A stretch of 64,000 nucleotides of DNA from Amycolatopsis deserti (GTDB taxonomy: Bacteria; Actinomycetota; Actinomycetes; Mycobacteriales; Pseudonocardiaceae): contig NZ_BNAU01000008.1 in the NCBI RefSeq assembly GCF_014653945.1, positions 62,001-126,000 on the forward strand, read 5' to 3'. How positions within the stretch are numbered: position 1 is the first letter of the stretch; each line of letters opens with the position of its first letter. The notes beneath the pieces were generated by a model. The model made no database searches. It was not told the DNA's origin and saw only the letters and a program-made list of their open reading frames with translations. Of the stretch, positions 23,884 through 35,098 are shown piece after piece. Made by a program: the position numbers and the translations under genes.

Positions 23884-24963
23884 ATGTCCACTCCTGCGCA
23901 GTCGCGGCCACGCACGGCCCACCGGGACCTCACCGGGTCCCCCTTCCTCGCGGCCGCCCGCGGCCACCGTCCCGCGCGGCTGCCCGTCTGGTTCATGCGC
24001 CAGGCCGGCCGCTCGCTGCCCGAGTACCGCGCGCTGCGCGAGGGCGTGCCGATGCTCAAGGCGTGCTTCGACCCGGAGATGATCGCCGAGATCACGCTCC
24101 AGCCGGTCCGCCGCCTCGGCGTGGACGCCGCGGTCTTCTACAGCGACATCGTGGTCCCGCTGGTCGCCGCGGGCATCGACGTCGACATCGTGCCCGGCAC
24201 CGGTCCGGTGGTCGCCGAGCCGGTGCGCGACGCCGCGGCGGTCCGCCGTCTGCCCGCGCTGGACCCGGAGCGGCTCGAGCCGGTGCTGGACGGCGCCCGG
24301 CTGCTGGTCGAGCGGCTGGGGCAGACCCCGCTGATCGGGTTCGCCGGCGCGCCGTTCACGCTCGCCTCCTACCTCATCGAGGGCGGCCCCAGCCGCAGCT
24401 TCGAGCGCACCAAGGCCCTCATGCGCTCCGAGCCGGAGGTGTGGCACGACCTGGCCGGACGGCTCGCCGACATCGCGGTGACCTTCCTGCGCGGCCAGAT
24501 CGAGGCCGGCGCCGACGTCGTGCAGCTGTTCGACTCCTGGGCCGGCGCGCTGACGCTGCGCGAGTACCGCGAGTTCGTGCTGCCGCACTCGGCGCGCGTG
24601 CTCGGCGCGGTCGCGGACCTGGACGTGCCGCGGATCCACTTCGGTGTCGGCACCGGCGAGCTCCTGACCGCCATGCGCGAGGCCGGGGCCGACGTGGTCG
24701 GCGTCGACTGGCGCGTCCCGCTGGACGAGGCCGTGCGGCGGCTGACCGCGCACGGCGAGCCGGTGCCGGTGGTACAGGGCAACCTGGACCCGGCGCTGCT
24801 GCAGGCGTCCTGGCCGGTGATCGAGTCCGAGGTGCGGCGCATCGCCGCCGAGGGCCGCGCCGCCGCCGCGCACATCTTCAACCTCGGCCACGGCGTGCCG
24901 CCCGGCACCGATCCCGACGTGCTGGCCCGCGTCGTCGAGCTCGTCCACAGCCTGGAGGGCTGA
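23884..24963 (+). CDS. hemE: Uroporphyrinogen decarboxylase
   Basis: Decarboxylates the four acetate side chains of uroporphyrinogen III to give coproporphyrinogen III. 359 residues, full length. Signature motifs are present: [20 protein letters not shown] with substrate-binding arginines, [18 protein letters not shown] with the catalytic Asp region, [46 protein letters not shown], and NLDPALL with [19 protein letters not shown] 23884 is the natural start. hemG overlaps its stop by one base (TGATG), so the two are translationally coupled. Confidence 0.97.
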
Positions 24964-26330
24964 TGCACGTCGCGGTCGTCGGCGGGGGCGTCTCGGGCGC
25001 GGTCGCGGCGTACCGGCTGCGTGCCGCGCTGGGCGACGGCGCGGCGATCACCGTCGTCGAGGCCACCAGCGCGCTCGGCGGCAAACTGCGCACCGCGGAG
25101 ATCGCGGGCGTGCGCTACGACGTGGGCGCCGAAGCCTTTCTCGCCCGCCGCCCGGAAGGCGTCGGGCTGGCCGGGGAACTGGGCCTGGAGCTGGTCCACC
25201 CGACGAAGGCCCGCTCGACCGTGCGGGCCGGCGGACGGCTCGCGCCGCTGCCCGGCCGGACGCTGATGGGCATCCCCGGCTCGCCGGACGCCGTCACCGA
25301 CGTGCTTTCCGACGCGGGCCGCGCGCGGGTCGCGGCCGAGCCGGAGCTGCCCCCGGTGACGCTGGAGTCCGACACCGCGCTGGGCGCCCTGCTGCGCGAG
25401 CGCTTCGGCGACGAACTGGTGGACCGCCTGGTAGACCCGCTGCTCGGCGGCGTCTACGCGGGCGGCGCCGACGGCCTGGGCCTGCGCGCCACCGTCCCCG
25501 CCCTCGCCACCGCGATCGACCGCGGCGCGCCCTCGCTGACCGCGGCCGCGGCCGGGCTGATCCCCGCCACGCCCAGCACCGCGCCGGTGTTCGGCACCCT
25601 GCCCGGCGGGCTCGGCACGCTGATCGACCGGCTCGTCGAGCTGGCCAAGCCGGACATCCGCCTCGGACAGCCGGTGACCGCGCTGCGGCGGCGGGAGAAC
25701 GGCTGGCGACTGGAGGTCGGTGACGAGTCGATCGACGCCGACGCCGTCCTGCTCGCGGTGCCCGCCCCGGCGGCCCGTCGGCTCCTGGCTGACGTCGTGC
25801 CGGCCGCGTCGTCCGCGCTCGGCGAGGTCGAGCTGGCGTCGATGGCGGTCGTCGCGATGGCCCTGCCGCCCGGCACCGAGCTGCCGGACGCCTCCGGGGT
25901 GCTGATCGGGGCGCGCGAACGCCGCTCCGACGGCGAGCCGTTCGCCGCGAAGGCCTTCACCTTCTCCTCCCGCAAGTGGTCGCACCTGGACACCGGCCCG
26001 GTGCTGGTGCGTGGTTCGGTCGGCCGGTTCGGCAAGCCCGGCGCGCTGCGGCGCGACGACGACGAGCTGGTCCGCCTGGTCCGCGACGACCTGGCCGAGC
26101 TGACCGGGATCACCGCGCAGCCGATCGACGTCGCCGTCCAGCGCTGGGGCGGCGGGCTGCCGCAGTACGGGCCGGGTCACCTCGACCTGGTCGAGCGGGC
26201 CGAGCGGGCCGTCGCCGCGGTGCCGGGGCTGGCGCTGGCCGGGGCCGCCCTGCACGGTGTCGGCGTGCCGGCGTGCATCGCGACGGCCACCGCGGCCGCG
26301 ACCCGCATCACCTCACAGCTGGTGCGCTAG
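24963..26330 (+). CDS. hemG: Coproporphyrinogen/protoporphyrinogen oxidase (HemY/CgoX type)
   Basis: FAD enzyme of 455 residues that oxidises the porphyrinogen. The dinucleotide-binding GxGxxG motif is at the N-terminus (HVAVVGGGVSGAVAAYRL), then the glutamate strand and GG loop (ITVVEATSALGGKL), YDVGAEAFLARRPEG, FGDELVDRLVDPLLGGVYAG, and C-terminal PQYGPGHLDLVERAE with GAALHGVGVPACIATA closing the FAD site. In Gram-positive and actinobacterial lineages this enzyme acts on coproporphyrinogen III; co-location with HemQ supports that. Symbols hemY and cgoX are also used. Confidence 0.95.
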   Translation: MHVAVVGGGVSGAVAAYRLRAALGDGAAITVVEATSALGGKLRTAEIAGVRYDVGAEAFLARRPEGVGLAGELGLELVHPTKARSTVRAGGRLAPLPGRTLMGIPGSPDAVTDVLSDAGRARVAAEPELPPVTLESDTALGALLRERFGDELVDRLVDPLLGGVYAGGADGLGLRATVPALATAIDRGAPSLTAAAAGLIPATPSTAPVFGTLPGGLGTLIDRLVELAKPDIRLGQPVTALRRRENGWRLEVGDESIDADAVLLAVPAPAARRLLADVVPAASSALGEVELASMAVVAMALPPGTELPDASGVLIGARERRSDGEPFAAKAFTFSSRKWSHLDTGPVLVRGSVGRFGKPGALRRDDDELVRLVRDDLAELTGITAQPIDVAVQRWGGGLPQYGPGHLDLVERAERAVAAVPGLALAGAALHGVGVPACIATATAAATRITSQLVR

Positions 26331-26363: not shown

Positions 26364-27056
26364 ATGGCGCGGCTGAACTATCAGGAGCTCAACGACACCA
26401 TCCGCTACACCGCCTGGTCGGTGTTCCGGGTCGAGCCAGGGCGGCTGCCCGAGGACCGCGGCCAGGCCGCGACGGAGACCACCGAGTACCTCGACGCCCT
26501 GGAGGGCAAGGGGGTCGTGGTGCGCGGCGTCTACGACGTCGCCGGGCTGCGCGCCGACGCCGACTACATGATCTGGTGGCACGCCGAGACGCCCGAGCAG
26601 GTGCAGGCCGCCTACACCGGGTTCCGCCGCACCCCGCTGGGCCGGGTGTCGACGCCGGTGTGGAGCCAGTTCGCACTGCACCGCCCCGCGGAGTTCAACC
26701 GCAGCCACATCCCCGCCTTCCTGGCCGGAGAGGAGGCGCGGAAGTACATCTGCGTGTACCCGTTCGTGCGCTCCTACGAGTGGTACCTGCTGCCGGACGC
26801 CGAGCGGCGCAAGATGCTCGCCGACCACGGCAAGGAGGCCCGGGACTACCCGGACGTCCGGGCGAACACGGTGGCGTCCTTCGCGCTCGGCGACTACGAG
26901 TGGATCCTCGCCTTCGAGGCCGACGAGCTGCACCGCATCGTGGACCTGATGCGCCACCTGCGCGGCACCGAGGCGCGGCGGCACGTGCGGGAGGAGATTC
27001 CGTTCTACACCGGCACCAAGGTCGTGCCGGCCGAGCTGATCCTGAACCTGCCGTAG
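26364..27056 (+). CDS. hemQ: Coproheme decarboxylase HemQ (chlorite dismutase-like)
   Basis: 230-residue enzyme of the chlorite dismutase fold that converts coproheme to haem b with H2O2. Recognisable features are [50 protein letters not shown] with the catalytic Tyr, [18 protein letters not shown] with the proximal His in the following ADHG, and FYTGTKV at the end. It completes the coproporphyrin-dependent haem branch with hemE and hemG. No ferrochelatase gene is in the window. Reads as an operon with hemG, 33 bases apart. Confidence 0.95.
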
Positions 27057-28086: not shown

Positions 28087-28416
28087 TCAGCGCGTGGAGC
28101 GGGACCACCAGCGCCGCCGGGGCAGTTCACCGCGGTCGGCGAGCCACGCGGCGAAGTTCGCGGAGTCCTGGCGGTAGCCGGTGCCGTCGGAGCGGGGTGC
28201 GGCCTCGGCGTAGGCGTCGAACAGGGGGTGGAATCGGTCGCCGAGCATCCGGAAGAGGTCGGGCCTGAGGTCGGCGACGATGGAGCGGCGCTTGGCCCGC
28301 AGGGCGAGCACCTCGGCGGCCAACCGGCCGGGGTCGAAGCCCGCCGGGGGAGCCCCGCCGGCCAGCAGCGCGCGCAGCAGCTCGGCTTGGCGGGCGGCGA
28401 GCTCTTCGCGGCTCAC
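28087..28416 (-). CDS. MNIO partner protein (BufC/DUF2063-like, SCO6045-type)
   Basis: 109-residue soluble protein translated from GTG 28416, which overlaps the DUF692 stop as GTGA. The pattern AARQAELLRALLAGGAPPAG, FDPGRLAAEVLALRAKRRS, VADLRPDLFRMLGDRFHPLFDAYA and FAAWLADRGE matches the small partner proteins that accompany DUF692 oxygenases, in which an N-terminal helical domain is thought to bind the substrate peptide. Canonical partners are longer; here only the helical part is present. The role as a substrate-docking partner is inferred from family knowledge and gene order. Confidence 0.72.
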   Translation of the reverse strand: MSREELAARQAELLRALLAGGAPPAGFDPGRLAAEVLALRAKRRSIVADLRPDLFRMLGDRFHPLFDAYAEAAPRSDGTGYRQDSANFAAWLADRGELPRRRWWSRSTR

Positions 28417-29330
28417 AGCCGCTCCCGGGTCGCGCCTGGCTCGGCCTGCGGCACTGGCCCGCGGATCGCGGGTGGCTCGGCGGCGCCCAGTCGCTCCTGG
28501 GGGCGTTTGGCGTGGTGCAGCGGCTCCGCGCCGCCCAGCCGCTCCCGGATCGCGGCCAGTTCCGCGGCCAGCTCGGCGTCCGGGGGATACGCACCGTCGC
28601 GCTCCAGGAGGGCTCCCGGGGGCTCCGTCCGCCGGCGCAGTTCGCCCAGCAGGTCCAGCACCTCGGGCAGCACCGGGTGCGTGTGCGTGTCGTGGTAGAG
28701 GCCGTCGACCTCGATGCCGCCCGCCACGTGCACGTACGCCACCCGCTCCAGCGGCACCTCGTCCAGGAACTCCACCGCATCGGCGCCCAGGTTCCGCGCG
28801 TTCGCGTACAGGTTCGCCACGTCGACGATCAGCAGGCACCCGGTCCGCGACGTCAGCTCGGCCAGGAACGCGGCCTCGCTCATCTCCGCGTCCGGCCACT
28901 CCAGCAGCGCGGCGATGTTCTCCAGCGCGAACGGCCTGCCCACGATCGACTGCGCCAGCCGCACGTTCTCCACCAGCACGTCGAGCGCCTCCCGCGTGCG
29001 GGGCAGCGGCACCAGGTGCCCCGCGTCCAGCCCGCCCGCGCGCACGAAGCACACGTGGTCACTGGCCAGCGGCGCGTCCAGCTCGTCGGCGACCGCCGCC
29101 AGGTGCTCCACCCGCCGCGTGTCCAGCGGCTCCGCGCCACCCAGCGACAGCGACACCGCGTGCGGCAGCACGGGCAAGCCGCGTTCGCGCAGCTCCACCA
29201 GCGACCCGGGCAGGTGCCCCGGGTGCAGGTTTTCCGCGATCACCTCGACCCACTCCACACCCGGCAACCGGGCGATCGACAGGTCGATCTCGGGCCGCCA
29301 CCCGATCCCCACGCCCAGCCGCTCAATCAC
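28413..29330 (-). CDS. DUF692 multinuclear non-haem iron oxygenase (MNIO)
   Basis: 305-residue TIM-barrel enzyme of the DUF692 family, which modifies cysteines in RiPP precursors with two or three iron ions. Metal ligands and shell residues are visible: LGVGIGWRPE, VEVIAENLHPG, LPHAVSLSLGG, PLASDHVCFV, FALENIAALLEW, LLIVDVANLYANARNLG, VAYVHVAGG, YHDTHTHPVLPEV. Known relatives are MbnB, TglH, ChrH and BufB. GTG 29330 is the start; its first codons overlap the last codons of the Cys-rich TIGR04222 gene by eight bases, so the two are coupled. The C-terminal 40 residues are low-complexity. The tail encoded upstream is the obvious candidate substrate. Confidence 0.88.
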   Translation of the reverse strand: MIERLGVGIGWRPEIDLSIARLPGVEWVEVIAENLHPGHLPGSLVELRERGLPVLPHAVSLSLGGAEPLDTRRVEHLAAVADELDAPLASDHVCFVRAGGLDAGHLVPLPRTREALDVLVENVRLAQSIVGRPFALENIAALLEWPDAEMSEAAFLAELTSRTGCLLIVDVANLYANARNLGADAVEFLDEVPLERVAYVHVAGGIEVDGLYHDTHTHPVLPEVLDLLGELRRRTEPPGALLERDGAYPPDAELAAELAAIRERLGGAEPLHHAKRPQERLGAAEPPAIRGPVPQAEPGATRERL

Positions 29331-30237
29331 CGCCGCCACCGCCGCAACCACCGCCGCCGCACGAGCTGCCGCCGCCACACGAGCTGCCACCGCAGGAGCT
29401 GCTCCCGCACGAGCTGCCGGAGGACCCGCAGCCGTAGCCGTACGCGCCTCCCGAGGACGAACCGGACCCCCAGCGGCGTCGCGGCTTCTGCGGCGGTGGC
29501 GGCGACAGCAGGGCCTGCGCGATGCCCGCGTCCGGGTACCGGCTCAGACCGCCCAGCGCCACGTCCCGCGCGGCCCCGCCCGGGGTCACGCTCGCGGCCC
29601 GCAGCGCCGCGTCACCCGTCGTCGTCCGGGCCGGCCCGCGCGCCGGGCGGTCGGTGAGCGTCCAGAGGAGCCCGGCCGGCAGCACGGCGAGCACGAACGT
29701 GCCGTGCGGGAACGTCACGAACGCGATGACCACGACCGCGACCAACAGGACCATGGCCAGCCGCCGGACGACGCGCATCGGGCCCCGTTCGACCAGGAGC
29801 CCCTCCCCGGTGAGGCGGTCGCGCAGCTGCTCGAACTCGGCGCGGCCGAGCATCTCGGTGCGCACCTCGTGCACGGTCCAGGTGCCGCGACCGAACTGCA
29901 CGCTGGTCCAGACCGCCCCGGTCAGGTCGTCGGCCGGGGCACGGCCACCGGTCGTGGACAGCCGCCCGGAGCTGCTCACCCGGACCCGCCCCTGCTCGAG
30001 CAGACCGGCCAGCGCGGCGTCGGTCGCCCGCGCCGGACCGCCGGCCAGAAAGCCCAGCTCGACCGGCCCCGGCGGCCGGTGCGGGCCGCCGTCGCGCCGC
30101 TTCAGCAGCCGCGAGCCGAGCGTGCGCACCAGGACGGGGAGCACCACCAGCACGGCGAAGACCGGCAGGAACGTCGAAGCGGGCAGACCCCAGAATGCGG
30201 GCCCGTCACCGAGTGAAAGGAGCACTGGTCCGGCCAC
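29323..30237 (-). CDS. TIGR04222-type membrane protein with Cys/Gly/Ser tail
   Basis: 304 residues. A membrane segment near the N-terminus (FLPVFAVLVVLPVLVRTLG) is followed by a soluble TIGR04222-like domain (VELGFLAGGPARATDAALAG, LEQGRVRVSSSGRLSTTG), then two close hydrophobic stretches at about 155-190 and a linker with GGLSRYPDAGIAQALLSPPP. After the basic PQKPRRRW the last 50 residues are almost only Gly, Ser and six Cys (about 270, 277, 282, 287, 293, 298). I recall TIGR04222 as a family often ending in such low-complexity Cys tails beside DUF692 genes. The tail is a likely substrate for the next gene product. Confidence 0.85.
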   Translation of the reverse strand: MAGPVLLSLGDGPAFWGLPASTFLPVFAVLVVLPVLVRTLGSRLLKRRDGGPHRPPGPVELGFLAGGPARATDAALAGLLEQGRVRVSSSGRLSTTGGRAPADDLTGAVWTSVQFGRGTWTVHEVRTEMLGRAEFEQLRDRLTGEGLLVERGPMRVVRRLAMVLLVAVVVIAFVTFPHGTFVLAVLPAGLLWTLTDRPARGPARTTTGDAALRAASVTPGGAARDVALGGLSRYPDAGIAQALLSPPPPQKPRRRWGSGSSSGGAYGYGCGSSGSSCGSSSCGGSSCGGGSSCGGGGCGGGGGD

Positions 30238-30240
30238 CCC

Positions 30241-30249
30241 ATCACCTCC
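30241..30249 (-). promoter_or_regulatory. Full-consensus ribosome binding site
   Basis: GGAGGTGAT, a full match to the 16S anti-Shine-Dalgarno sequence, lies four bases ahead of the GTG start (30237) of the Cys-tail gene and contains the stop codon of the upstream paralogue. Strong, coupled translation of the tail protein is expected. Confidence 0.75.
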
Positions 30250-30928
30250 AAGTCCCCCACGGGCGCGTCGGCGATTCGACGAGCGGCACGTGCCCCCGGT
30301 TCCCCGGCGGCCGGGAAACCCGGCGCAGCAGCCGGGACCCCGCGATCGTCCGCCGCGGCGGCGGCACGAGTTCGGCCAGCCCGAGGACGAGCACGCCGCC
30401 CAGCATCACCGGGATGGCCGCCACCGCGTAACCGCCGGCGAACGTGCTGGCCACGACCCCGACCAGCAGGACCCGGCAGGCGATCCGGATGCCGGCGGCG
30501 TCACCGGGCGCCACCGCCAGGCCGCGGGCCGCGAGGCCGCCGACGAGCTGCTCGAACGGGGTGCCTTTCGCCAGGTAGACGCGCAGGGTGCGCGCGGTCG
30601 CCAGGCCGCGCCAGAACGAGACCGCCAGCACGACGGCGACGGCCAGCGGATCGTCCGGAGCCCGCTGGCTCGTGGTGGTCAGCCGCCCGGTGCCGTCCAC
30701 CCGGATCCACTGGCGCGCGACCAGGTCCGCGAGCACGAAGTCGACCGCGCGCTCCGCCCCGCCGGCCAGGGCGGCCAGCTCCGCCGGGGTGACCCGGTCG
30801 GCGCCGATCCGGATGCGGCGGCAGCGCAGCAGCACCGGGCCGAGCAGCCGCACCACCGGCGGCACCAGGATCAGCGCCGCGTAGAGCACCACCAGTTCCC
30901 GGGCGGACAGTCCCCAGTACGCCCCCAT
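30242..30928 (-). CDS. TIGR04222-type membrane protein without Cys tail
   Basis: 228 residues, paralogous to the next gene: GLSARELVVLYAALILVPPV membrane helix, VTPAELAALAGGAERAVDFV and DLVARQWIRVDGTGRLTTTS correspond to the same positions in the Cys-tail protein (LGFLAGG, LEQGRVRVSSSGRLSTTG), and a second pair of hydrophobic segments follows (VLLVGVVASTFAGGYAVAAI). It ends with a basic PPGNRGHVPLVESPTRPWG tail and has no Cys cluster. As first gene of the operon it may form a hetero-oligomer with its partner; that is inference. Function unknown. Confidence 0.8.
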   Translation of the reverse strand: MGAYWGLSARELVVLYAALILVPPVVRLLGPVLLRCRRIRIGADRVTPAELAALAGGAERAVDFVLADLVARQWIRVDGTGRLTTTSQRAPDDPLAVAVVLAVSFWRGLATARTLRVYLAKGTPFEQLVGGLAARGLAVAPGDAAGIRIACRVLLVGVVASTFAGGYAVAAIPVMLGGVLVLGLAELVPPPRRTIAGSRLLRRVSRPPGNRGHVPLVESPTRPWGTWR

Positions 30929-30983: not shown

Positions 30984-31418
30984 TCACTCGGCGGGGACCA
31001 GCCGCAGGGAGATCGAGTTGATGCAGTACCGCTGGTCGGTGGGGGTCGGGTAGCCCTCGCCCTCGAAGAGGTGGCCCAGGTGGCTGTGGCAGGTCGCGCA
31101 CAGCACCTCGGTGCGCACCATGCCCAGCGACCGGTCCTCGCGCAGCAGCACGGCGTCGGAGGAGGACGGGTCGAAGAACGACGGCCAGCCGCAGTGGCTT
31201 TCGAACTTGGTGTCGCTGCGGAACAGCTCCGCACCGCAGGCGCGGCACTCGTAGACGCCGGTGGTCTTGGTGTCGGTGTACTCGCCGGTGAACGGCCGCT
31301 CGGTGCCCGCCTGGCGCAGCACGGCGTACTCCTCGGGGGAGAGCTGCTCGCGCCACTCCTGGTCCGACTTGACCACCTTCGGGGTGGCTCCCACGACGGG
31401 TTCCATGCGAGGTTTCAT
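30984..31418 (-). CDS. msrB: Peptide-methionine (R)-S-oxide reductase
   Basis: 144-residue MsrB that reduces methionine-R-sulfoxide in proteins. Two CxxC zinc pairs (YECRACGAELF and VLCATCHSHLGHLF), the SHCGWPSFFDP motif and the catalytic Cys in QRYCINSISL are all present, so it is the zinc-containing, thioredoxin-dependent form. ATG 31418 or the in-frame ATG 31406 may be used. It matches the msrB position (Rv2674) in the M. tuberculosis dxs-hemE block. Confidence 0.96.
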   Translation of the reverse strand: MKPRMEPVVGATPKVVKSDQEWREQLSPEEYAVLRQAGTERPFTGEYTDTKTTGVYECRACGAELFRSDTKFESHCGWPSFFDPSSSDAVLLREDRSLGMVRTEVLCATCHSHLGHLFEGEGYPTPTDQRYCINSISLRLVPAE

Positions 31419-31428
31419 ATACGTCAGG

Positions 31429-31719
31429 CTACTCGGCGAGCCACTGCACGGCCCGTACCACGATGTCCCACGAGGCGACGATCACGCCCAGGACCAGCAG
31501 CACCACGATGGTCGCGGCGATCCACCAGCGCAGGCCGCCGACCCGGGCGCTGGACTCGGCGAACTCGGCCACGTTGTGCAGGGTGCCCTCGACGGTGAAC
31601 CCCGGCTCGCACCGCTGCATCCGGTCCAGGTGCCTCGCGAACGCCTGGGCTTCCGGATCGTCGGGGTCGAGCCCGACCAGGTCGTCGTCGAAGCGCGGGT
31701 TGCGGCCGCTTTCGGTCAT
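31429..31719 (-). CDS. Small single-pass membrane protein, hypothetical
   Basis: 96 residues: an acidic N-terminal half with no known motif (FDDDLVGLDPDDPEAQAFAR) and one transmembrane helix near the C-terminus (IAATIVVLLVLGVIVASW). Probably an N-in protein. It stands between the kinase gene and msrB on the same strand with short gaps of 15 and 10 bases, so all may share a transcript. I do not recognise the family. Confidence 0.7.
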   Translation of the reverse strand: MTESGRNPRFDDDLVGLDPDDPEAQAFARHLDRMQRCEPGFTVEGTLHNVAEFAESSARVGGLRWWIAATIVVLLVLGVIVASWDIVVRAVQWLAE

Positions 31720-31734
31720 ACCGACCAGGGTAGG

Positions 31735-33291
31735 TCAGCCGAGCTTGGTGTCGGAGTCGATCCGCAGTCCCCCGGAGGTGCTGACCACCCGCCAGGAGAT
31801 GCGGCCGACCCCGTCGATCGAGACGTACATGTCGGCGGAGCCGTCGGCGTTGGCGCCGTTGTCCGCGCGGATCGAGCTGTAGCCCTGGATCTTGTGCTCG
31901 CTCCAGTACTGCTGGAAGGCCTGCTGGCTGCCGAACACCTCCTGCGCGGCCGGGGTGAGCAGGTTCCACGCCTGGGCCGATCCGGAACCGTCCAGGTAGG
32001 CCTTGACCACCTGGCCCGCCGAGCCGAAGTCGACCGATCCGGTGTTGGCCGTCTTGCCCAGGTCCGCCGGGGCGGCGCTGCTGGAGGTGCTGGACGGCGC
32101 CGACGGGGTGGGTGTGGGGCCGCCGACGTTGGCCTGCGACGTGCCGCCGTTCGCGGTGTCGCCGCCGTTGAGCGCGACCAGCAGGACCACGACGAGCACC
32201 GCGACCACGGCCACCGCGGACCCGATCAGCACGCCCTTGCGCTTCAGCGGCGATGGCTTGGCCTGCTGGGGCGGCTTCGGCGGCGGGATGAACGCGGCCG
32301 TCGGGTTGCGCGGGCTGCGCTGCGGCGGGGCGGGCGGCGCGGCGGTGGCGGCGCCGGTGCGCTGCCACGGCGGCCGCTCGGCGGGCGCGGGGGCTTCGGC
32401 GGGCACGGCCGCGGGCTGGCGGCCGGAGCTGAACAGCGGCGGCGACACCATCGTGCCGCCCTTGGTGTCCTTCTCGCCGTTGGCGAGCGCGGCCAGCCGG
32501 TCGCGGGCCTCCAGCATGGTCGGCCGCTCCTCCGGCTCGACCCGCAGCAGGCTCATCAGCAGCGCGGTCGCCTTGCCGGAGCTGCGCGGCGGGATGACCT
32601 GCCCGTTCGCCGCCGTGTAGAGCAGGGCGAGCTGGTTGGAGCTGTTGCCGTAGGGCGGCTGGCCCTCCAGCGCGTGGTAGAGCGTCGCGCCGAGGGAGAA
32701 GACGTCGGAGGCCGGCGCCGGGTCCGAGCCGCGCGCCAGCTCGGGCGCGAGGTAGGCCGGGGTGCCGCCGATCAGGCCGGTCTGGGTGAGCGTGAGGTCG
32801 CCTGCCGCGCGCGAGATGCCGAAGTCGGTGATCTTCGCGGTGCCGTTCTCGTCGATCAGGATGTTCGCCGGCTTGATGTCCCGGTGCACGATCCCGGCGC
32901 GGTGCGCCACGACCAGCGCCGAGGCGACCTGGTGCCCGATGCGCGCGACCTCGGCCAGCGGCAGCGTGCCCTGCTCGGCGATCACCGCGGAGAGGCTGCG
33001 CGAGGGCAGGTACTCCATGACCAGGCACGGATCGCCCCCGTGCTCGGCGATGTCGAACACCACGATGGCGTTCGGGTGCTGGAACCGCGCCGCGTTCTTC
33101 GCCTCGCGCATCGCTCGCTGGCGCATGCTGTTGCGCTCGGCCTCGGACATGCCCGGCTGGGCGAGGATCTGCTTCACCGCCACCGAACGCTCGAGGCGCT
33201 CGTCGACCGCGCGCCACACGACGCCCATGGCGCCGCTGCCGATGTGCTCAACGAGGCGATAGTGCCCTGCGATCAGCTGACCGGTGTCGAT
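31735..33291 (-). CDS. Membrane Ser/Thr protein kinase (PknB-like)
   Basis: About 518 residues. Kinase domain first: glycine loop EHIGSGAMGVVWRAVD, VAVKQIL Lys, HRDIKPANILID catalytic loop, ITDFGISRA, GTPAYLAPELARG. A Pro/Ala-rich juxtamembrane linker leads to one transmembrane helix (VLIGSAVAVVAVLVVVLLVA) and an extracytoplasmic domain of about 120 residues that lacks PASTA repeats (VVKAYLDGSGSAQAWNLLTP). The start is uncertain: no ATG or GTG lies between the upstream in-frame ATG 33453 and the kinase core. AUC 33291 (IDTGQLIAGHYRL), preceded by GAGGAG and five bases after the upstream stop, is my choice. Confidence 0.9.
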   Translation of the reverse strand: MDTGQLIAGHYRLVEHIGSGAMGVVWRAVDERLERSVAVKQILAQPGMSEAERNSMRQRAMREAKNAARFQHPNAIVVFDIAEHGGDPCLVMEYLPSRSLSAVIAEQGTLPLAEVARIGHQVASALVVAHRAGIVHRDIKPANILIDENGTAKITDFGISRAAGDLTLTQTGLIGGTPAYLAPELARGSDPAPASDVFSLGATLYHALEGQPPYGNSSNQLALLYTAANGQVIPPRSSGKATALLMSLLRVEPEERPTMLEARDRLAALANGEKDTKGGTMVSPPLFSSGRQPAAVPAEAPAPAERPPWQRTGAATAAPPAPPQRSPRNPTAAFIPPPKPPQQAKPSPLKRKGVLIGSAVAVVAVLVVVLLVALNGGDTANGGTSQANVGGPTPTPSAPSSTSSSAAPADLGKTANTGSVDFGSAGQVVKAYLDGSGSAQAWNLLTPAAQEVFGSQQAFQQYWSEHKIQGYSSIRADNGANADGSADMYVSIDGVGRISWRVVSTSGGLRIDSDTKLG

Positions 33292-33295
33292 GGGA

Positions 33296-34033
33296 CTACT
33301 CCTCGGAAACTCTCCGCATGTGCTGGCTTGGCTCAGCGCGAACGATCTCCTCGCGCACCGGGTCGAGTGTAGCGGGCTGCCTGATACGCCCGGCGTTAGC
33401 TGTCCCGCGGGCGATTCGCGCCAGTCCGACGGCGCCGGCGACCGCGAAGGCACCGTAGCAGGCCAGCAGCGCGGGCGGTGTGCTGCCGGTGAGCGCGTCG
33501 CCCAGCACCACCACCGCGATCGTGCCCGGCAGGCTGCCGAGGACGGTCCCGATCAGGTACGGGCGGAACCGCACCGAGAGGATGCCGCAGCAATAACCCA
33601 GTGGTGCGAAGGGAACCAGCGGGATCAGCCGCAATGAGGCGACCGCCAGGATCCCGCCGTCGGCGAGCCGTTCGTCGACCGCACGCACGACTTTCCGTTC
33701 CAGGTGGCGGGCCACGAGGTCGCGCCCGACCAGACGGGCCAGGCCGAACCCGAGCGCGCCGGACACCGCGGTCGCCGTGATGGCCACCACGATCCCGAGC
33801 ACGTCGCCGAGCAGCAGGCCGGCCGCGAGGTTGAAGACGGTGCGGGGGATGGGGGCGACGGTGAGCACCGCGTACGCGGCCAGGAACACCAGTGCGGTCA
33901 CCGCGCCCGCGCCGGCGGCCCAGTTGCGCAGTTCCGCGGGGCTGGGCACCGGAAGTGTGAACGCCGCCACGACCGCCCCGGCGAGCAGGACGAGCGCGAC
34001 GATCAACTTCAGGCGGCGGGACACGACGTCCAC
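33296..34033 (-). CDS. TVP38/VTT (DedA-like) membrane protein
   Basis: 245-residue integral membrane protein with the VTT/SNARE-associated domain: VFLAAYAVLTVAPIPRTVFN, LAAGLLLGDVLGIVVAITAT, SLRLIPLVPFAPLGYCCGIL with the conserved P-x-x-P/N-Y region, and GTVLGSLPGTIAVVVLGDAL. Such proteins are linked to lipid scrambling or membrane homeostasis. The C-terminal 40 residues are hydrophilic. Start GTG 34033 or GTG 34024. Upstream of and probably coupled with the kinase gene; divergent from the LigD-type polymerase gene. Confidence 0.85.
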   Translation of the reverse strand: MDVVSRRLKLIVALVLLAGAVVAAFTLPVPSPAELRNWAAGAGAVTALVFLAAYAVLTVAPIPRTVFNLAAGLLLGDVLGIVVAITATAVSGALGFGLARLVGRDLVARHLERKVVRAVDERLADGGILAVASLRLIPLVPFAPLGYCCGILSVRFRPYLIGTVLGSLPGTIAVVVLGDALTGSTPPALLACYGAFAVAGAVGLARIARGTANAGRIRQPATLDPVREEIVRAEPSQHMRRVSEE

Positions 34034-34078: not shown

Positions 34079-35098
34079 GTGGCAGGACGCGGTGAGGCGG
34101 TCGAATACCAGGTGGGCTCCCGAACGGTGCGGGTGTCCAATCCGGACAAGGTGTACTTCCCGGAGCGCGGGATCACCAAGCGGCAGGTCGTGGAGTACTA
34201 CCTCGCGGTCGCGGAGCCGTTGCTGCGGGCGGTGGGGGAGCGGCCGACGACGCTGAAACGGTTCCCCGACGGCGTTTCCGGTGAGCCGTTCTACGCCAAA
34301 CGGGTTCCCAAGGGAGCACCCGTTTGGGTGCAGACCGCGCGGATCACCTTCCCCTCCGGGCGGACCGCGGACGAGGTCTGCCCCACCGAGGCGGCGGTGT
34401 TCGCGTGGGCGGCCAACCTCGGCACGCTGGACTTCCACCCGTGGCCGGTGCGGCGGTCCGACGTGGACCACCCGGACGAACTGCGCATCGACGTGGATCC
34501 CGCGGACAGCTCCGGGTTCGGCGACGCGGTGCGGGTGGCGCTCGTGGTGCGCGAGGTGCTCGCCGACGCCGGGCTGACCGGGTACCCGAAGACCTCCGGC
34601 GGGCGCGGAGTGCACGTGCTGGTCCGGATCCGGCCGGAGTGGGACTTCATCGACGTGCGGCACGCGGTGATCGCGCTGGGCCGCGAGGTGGAGCGGCGCG
34701 TGCCCGACCTCGCCACGATCGCGTGGTGGAAGGAGGAGCGCGGCGGCCGCGTGTTCCTCGACTACAACCAGGCGGCGCGGGACCGGACGGTGGCCTCGTC
34801 GTGGTCGGTGCGCGGCACGCCCCGGGCGACGGTGTCGACGCCGGTGACGTGGGAGCAGCTGCCGGAGGTCGACCCGGACGACTTCGACGTGCTCACGGTG
34901 CCGGACTGGCTGGCCGAGCACGGCGACCCGCACGCCACCCTCGACGACCGGGCGTTCGGCCTGGAGACGGCGCTGGAGTGGTACGCCCGCGACGAGCGGG
35001 ACCACGGCCTCGGCGAGATGCCGTACCCGCCGGACTACCCGAAGATGCCCGGTGAGCCCAAGCGCGTGCAGCCGAGCCGGGCGCGGCCGGAGGACTGA
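34079..35098 (+). CDS. ligD: LigD-type NHEJ polymerase domain protein
   Basis: 339-residue stand-alone primase-polymerase of bacterial non-homologous end joining. Motifs of the LigD polymerase family are present: VSNPDKVYFPERGITKRQVV, LKRFPDGVSGEPFYAKRVP, LDFHPWPVRRSDVDHPDELR with IDVDPAD (catalytic aspartates), TSGGRGVHVLVRI, RVFLDYNQ and ARDRTVASSWSVRGTPRATV. No ligase or nuclease domain is fused. It adds (ribo)nucleotides at broken ends and acts with Ku and a ligase; a separate ligase is at 39764. Start GTG 34079. Ku is not in the window. Confidence 0.92.
   Translation: MAGRGEAVEYQVGSRTVRVSNPDKVYFPERGITKRQVVEYYLAVAEPLLRAVGERPTTLKRFPDGVSGEPFYAKRVPKGAPVWVQTARITFPSGRTADEVCPTEAAVFAWAANLGTLDFHPWPVRRSDVDHPDELRIDVDPADSSGFGDAVRVALVVREVLADAGLTGYPKTSGGRGVHVLVRIRPEWDFIDVRHAVIALGREVERRVPDLATIAWWKEERGGRVFLDYNQAARDRTVASSWSVRGTPRATVSTPVTWEQLPEVDPDDFDVLTVPDWLAEHGDPHATLDDRAFGLETALEWYARDERDHGLGEMPYPPDYPKMPGEPKRVQPSRARPED

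Follow-up and report, generated by a model that had tools for sequence, protein, structure and literature searches.

Membrane proteins of the TIGR04222 family with a Cys-rich tail have already been proposed as substrates of MNIO (DUF692) enzymes by Antoine et al. 2025 (PMC12452194). In the accessible part of that paper the nature of the modification and its role are still to be investigated, and most known MNIO precursors are described as bearing Sec signals. Here we describe such a locus from Amycolatopsis deserti, found in a window of 64,000 nucleotides (nt; the whole stretch analyzed, contig NZ_BNAU01000008.1, positions 62,001 to 126,000). A sequence-only reading of this window had claimed four tightly coupled minus-strand genes, two of them encoding TIGR04222-type membrane proteins, and both claims hold. 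The operon spans 28087-30928 in the order TIGR04222-a, TIGR04222-b, MNIO and partner, with a gap of 4 nt after the first gene and overlaps of 8 and 4 nt at the next two junctions, and both TIGR04222 proteins score above the NCBIfam cut-off. A whole-genome search yielded a single MNIO and two TIGR04222 matches, both inside the operon. As in the published class, TIGR04222-b adjoins the MNIO and ends in a Cys-rich Gly/Ser C-terminus. The earlier statement that this pairing has no characterized product agrees with the accessible text of PMC12452194. On balance we consider it probable that the MNIO and its partner modify a cytosolic tail of TIGR04222-b, making a soft-metal or redox trap.

The predicted DUF692 oxygenase with its metal ligands was confirmed by its match to Pfam PF05114 and by all nine iron ligands of TglH, which are kept when mapped onto the window enzyme and are invariant across 18 aligned sequences (alignment A1). 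The start codon of the form used here was picked by us among several GTG codons. At G050:C1:396224-396998 the MNIO was matched as three pieces, adjoining a TIGR04222 gene whose reading frame is open. Other MNIO genes in related genomes (L064, L036, L037 and L038) adjoin genes with the Pfam DUF2063 signature, and L064 contains no TIGR04222 gene within its 13 kb.

For the fourth gene the sequence-only reading had named a short BufC/DUF2063-like partner; the kind was right, while the likeness is remote and the second domain absent by length. The partner gave no NCBIfam match up to E 0.01 and no Pfam match, DUF2063 included, up to E 10. When compared with four bufferin-type partners found in related genomes (268-296 amino acids (aa), themselves matching Pfam DUF2063), a profile of its family aligned along their DUF2063 domain over 89 columns with 64% probability and E 6.4e-5; the one control, the TIGR04222 profile, gave 0.9%. 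The partner, at only 109 aa, is too short to hold the second domain of these proteins as well. Its domain is all-helical in the structure model of a relative fused to MNIO, and PDB sequence searches with the partner and TIGR04222 profiles returned no convincing relative. With a DUF2063-like domain, no Pfam signature and a gene following the MNIO, it belongs to PME-type 2; PME-type 1 carries the Pfam DUF2063 signature.

A survey of MNIO neighbors in Actinomycetes relatives, suggested by the sequence-only reading, showed that TIGR04222 with a Cys tail plus partner recurs among 125 TIGR04222-linked loci (near-duplicates removed); a further 14 nonredundant MNIO loci lack TIGR04222 within 6 kb. The partner is present in 121 of the 125 and forms a single reading frame with the MNIO in 24, mostly from Streptomyces. 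Where it is unfused and on the same strand, its start lies -150 to 400 nt from the MNIO stop in 116 of 118 pairings, a set that includes duplicates. The partner is the rule among the sampled Actinomycetes whose MNIOs are near the window enzyme, and the fusions strongly indicate joint action of partner and MNIO.

The C-terminal tail of TIGR04222-b contains six Cys, as the sequence-only reading had it, and the rest of the protein contains none. In the 210 unique tails of the family that hold at least two Cys (median length 47), Cys makes up 10.2% of residues, compared with 0.38% outside the tail, a concentration that exceeds chance. Cys occurs among the last eight residues in 201 of these tails, 81 of which end in CGG; the commonest Cys spacing is 6, and 958 of 1030 counted tail Cys have Gly/Ser on both sides. 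In the tail DNA of the window, TRF finds weak and imperfect tandem repeats (period 15-18); even so, the mixture of Cys and Ser codons points to selection on the protein.

To relate tail and enzyme we used overlapping family, class and order samples, with the phylum search and TIGR04222 matches below the cut-off excluded from the counts. TIGR04222 and MNIO were found in 82 and 79 of 150 genomes of the family, 64 and 51 of 246 of the class, and 119 and 106 of 298 of the order. Among genomes whose loci were read, tails with at least 2 Cys occur in 89/94 MNIO-positive versus 6/38 MNIO-negative genomes, and those with at least 3 Cys in 82/94 versus 2/38. Of the six exceptions, G096 and G104 are assemblies of 480 and 370 contigs, and the other four genomes have short tails with two Cys. 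In the MNIO-less genomes of L312, L313, L314 and L305, a Gly tail bears one Cys internally and another at the C-terminal end, which differs from the pattern linked to MNIO. Several MNIO-less genomes keep a Gly/Ser-rich tail lacking Cys.

These data also bear on an alternative in which the MNIO acts elsewhere, on an unlinked peptide or on TIGR04222 residues other than Cys, and the Cys tail serves on its own to bind metal or form disulfides. Three observations favor it and weigh against a modified tail: Cys tails occur in genomes in which no MNIO was found, TIGR04222 paralogues unlinked to MNIO also bear them, and the association weakens after correction for kinship. Among 7 independent pairs a mean of 3.5 agreed, 0 opposed and 3.5 were undecided (median p 0.125), and with 3 or more Cys 2.6 agreed versus 1.5 opposing. 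On the other side, a Cys tail is found at 118 of the 125 linked loci, and the tail of MNIO-less G548 has no Cys while two MNIO-positive congeners carry 6 counted Cys. Dependence of the tail on the MNIO is supported, not proven, the raw association being strong and the kinship-corrected one weak. Apart from that weakness, the comparative evidence is in keeping with the earlier proposal that the oxygenase modifies a membrane-anchored Cys tail.

A separate Cys-rich peptide would serve the same alternative, and none convinced us. Between 24 and 36 kb, 18 open reading frames (ORFs) of 25-150 aa contain 3 or more Cys, of which four passed a codon-composition test (GC3-GC2 over 0.2): MsrB, two plus-strand ORFs taken as shadows because they lie opposite the 96-aa gene and the kinase, and one 58-aa ORF. 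The last, at 34765-34938 on the minus strand with 3 Cys, lies beyond the operon. DUF2282, the Buf1 precursor, gave nothing over the cut-off in the genome (best 18.6 versus 22.4 bits), and a separate Cys peptide was rejected as the substrate. The screen yielded no convincing Cys-rich small gene near the operon besides MsrB, in line with the claim that the tail is the only such candidate nearby. Taken together, we regard action on another target as improbable.

Where the tail lies is the point on which we depart from the published proposal. In the AlphaFold2 model of TIGR04222-b (pLDDT 83.3, pTM 0.75), three transmembrane (TM) helices, the first hydrophobic stretch being a 27-residue helix, are predicted beside a folded core and the C-terminal tail. 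A fourth segment is charged (R, D, R), is followed by KPRRR, and is modeled as a short helix, not a TM span, in a part of the fold predicted with confidence, which suggests that the tail of the window protein is cytosolic. Antoine et al. 2025 (PMC12452194, accessible text) state that the tail of this same enzyme-substrate pair is periplasmic; by extension, it would chelate metal outside the cytoplasm in the manner of a tethered bufferin. Among 250 family members, 200 of them Cys-tailed, 62 have an uncharged fourth segment followed by a mean of 1.15 K+R per 35 residues, as expected for a fourth TM helix and an outside tail, and this speaks against our placement. The Cys-tailed members, however, show the cytosolic pattern in 69/200 and the opposite in 51/200, the remainder being ambiguous, and Gly+Ala makes up 47% of the 40 fourth segments of highest hydrophobicity versus 22% of TM1. 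For the window protein we consider a periplasmic tail rather unlikely.

The core fold is perhaps GOLPH3-like, a likeness seen solely in a VIA-align comparison of the model. A winged-helix idea, raised by weak CRP and MarR matches in PDB searches, was dropped when the structure model gave GOLPH3 rows instead. L188, a weak TIGR04222 match below the cut-off, is a DUF2207_C protein, which suggests distant kinship of the two families.

We propose that the TIGR04222 core sits as a folded domain on the inner membrane face, with three TM helices and the N-terminus out. The tail would then hang in the cytosol, so that the MNIO could reach it without export. There, the enzyme and its DUF2063-like partner would oxidatively modify tail Cys to groups that, by analogy, may be thiooxazole- or oxazolone/thioamide-like. 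Tethered to the membrane, the product may serve in peroxide stress as a soft-metal or redox trap, with TIGR04222-a as a tail-less helper. The fuller picture, of a resident, non-exported membrane protein with a perhaps GOLPH3-like core whose inner-face tail is modified by a paired or fused MNIO-partner in a peroxide, heme and sulfur stress response, is possible but doubtful.

Table 1 Features of the operon and its surroundings.
Feature	Position	Strand	Family match
TIGR04222-a (228 aa), paralogue of TIGR04222-b without Cys tail	30242-30928	-	NCBIfam TIGR04222, 65.6 bits (cut-off 43)
TIGR04222-b (304 aa), candidate MNIO substrate	29323-30237	-	NCBIfam TIGR04222, 96.7 bits (cut-off 43)
Gly/Ser/Cys tail of TIGR04222-b (48 residues, six Cys)	29326-29469	-	
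MNIO/DUF692 enzyme (305 aa)	28413-29330	-	Pfam PF05114, 278.6 bits (cut-off 25)
Partner protein (109 aa), DUF2063-like domain alone	28087-28416	-	
MsrB methionine sulfoxide reductase, 55 nt upstream of TIGR04222-a, possibly same operon	30984-31418	-	TIGR00357, 166.4 bits
Protein kinase gene and 96-aa ORF, directly upstream of MsrB	31429-33453	-	
Chlorite dismutase family protein (HemQ by synteny), convergent neighbor	26364-27056	+	PF06778, 263.6 bits
Flavin amine-oxidase family protein, probably HemY	24963-26330	+	PF01593, 150.7 bits

The neighborhood is listed in Table 1. The HemQ/HemY-type genes converge on the operon, with a short-chain dehydrogenase/reductase gene between. In relatives, where flank lengths vary and contig ends cut some loci, HemQ/HemY lie in the flanks in 29/44 Pseudonocardiales, 18/24 Kitasatosporales, 0/9 Streptosporangiales and 0/3 Mycobacteriales, mostly downstream of the MNIO and convergent; the corresponding counts for MsrB are 37/44, 1/24, 0/9 and 1/3. 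Another 71 loci have HemQ/HemY in 26 and MsrB in 28. The kinase cluster recurs in 16 and the 96-aa ORF cluster in 40 of 139 nonredundant MNIO loci. A SigR promoter upstream of the MNIO was rejected: 24 Kitasatosporales loci, a few of them with operons that begin at TIGR04222, gave no strict match and 2 relaxed ones, both of which overlap the start codon.

The gene we take to be HemY is so named by recognition and by synteny with SCO6041. In S. coelicolor, SCO6041 is reported as protoporphyrinogen oxidase and SCO6042 as chlorite dismutase (PMC5069765, accessible part). Five Streptomyces loci (L251, L252, L270, L271 and L272) share the order HemQ, TIGR04222 without Cys tail, TIGR04222 with Cys tail, MNIO, by which the S. 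coelicolor MNIO would be SCO6045, in apparent agreement with the UniProt name UPF0276 protein SCO6045; other Streptomyces loci have more intervening DNA. None of the scans gave a Pfam domain that takes its name from SCO6045. According to the accessible part of PMC4991794, SCO6045 is among 28 genes raised by H2O2 in the wild type (3.01-fold), none of which rose in the redox-sensor mutant, and cysteine biosynthesis genes share the list. For this one gene in one dataset, the rise would speak for a redox or sulfur stress and not for copper. A tail role in metal binding or redox defence is plausible, and MsrB, HemQ and the peroxide-induced gene, if it is indeed the MNIO, lean to redox.

If tails are modified in place and face the cytosol, protein modification by MNIOs would belong to core actinobacterial physiology and have a metal or redox role, here on a membrane protein and not on an exported peptide. 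The Streptomyces fusions offer a single-chain enzyme convenient for testing tail modification. New relative to the published proposal are a proposed correction of topology and further leads; the accessible text of PMC12452194 makes no mention of GOLPH3, GPP34, chlorite dismutase, MsrB or peroxide.

Among known systems, TglHI shares all nine TglH iron ligands and the presence of a partner protein. GOLPH3/Vps74 (GPP34) differs in that the TM helices of TIGR04222-b (151-195) fall inside the matched span and TIGR04222-b lacks the Pfam signature, with no match up to E 10. Bufferin systems (BufA-BufB-BufC) resemble the locus in having a Cys-bearing substrate, here a candidate, and a DUF2063-like partner, and BufB is the top-scoring NCBIfam MNIO model for the window enzyme; its 203.8 bits are, however, under the BufB equivalog cut-off (NF050167, 310), a membrane protein serves as candidate substrate and the partner consists of a single short domain. 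Closest is the TIGR04222-MNIO class (PMC12452194, accessible text), with the same gene families, Gly/Ser/Cys tail, mostly actinomycetotal distribution, substrate proposal and PME-type 2 partner. It differs in its periplasm-exposed tail, predicted here to be cytosolic, and in its partner, given there for at least 10% with many clusters apparently lacking one, whereas here it is near universal and often fused.
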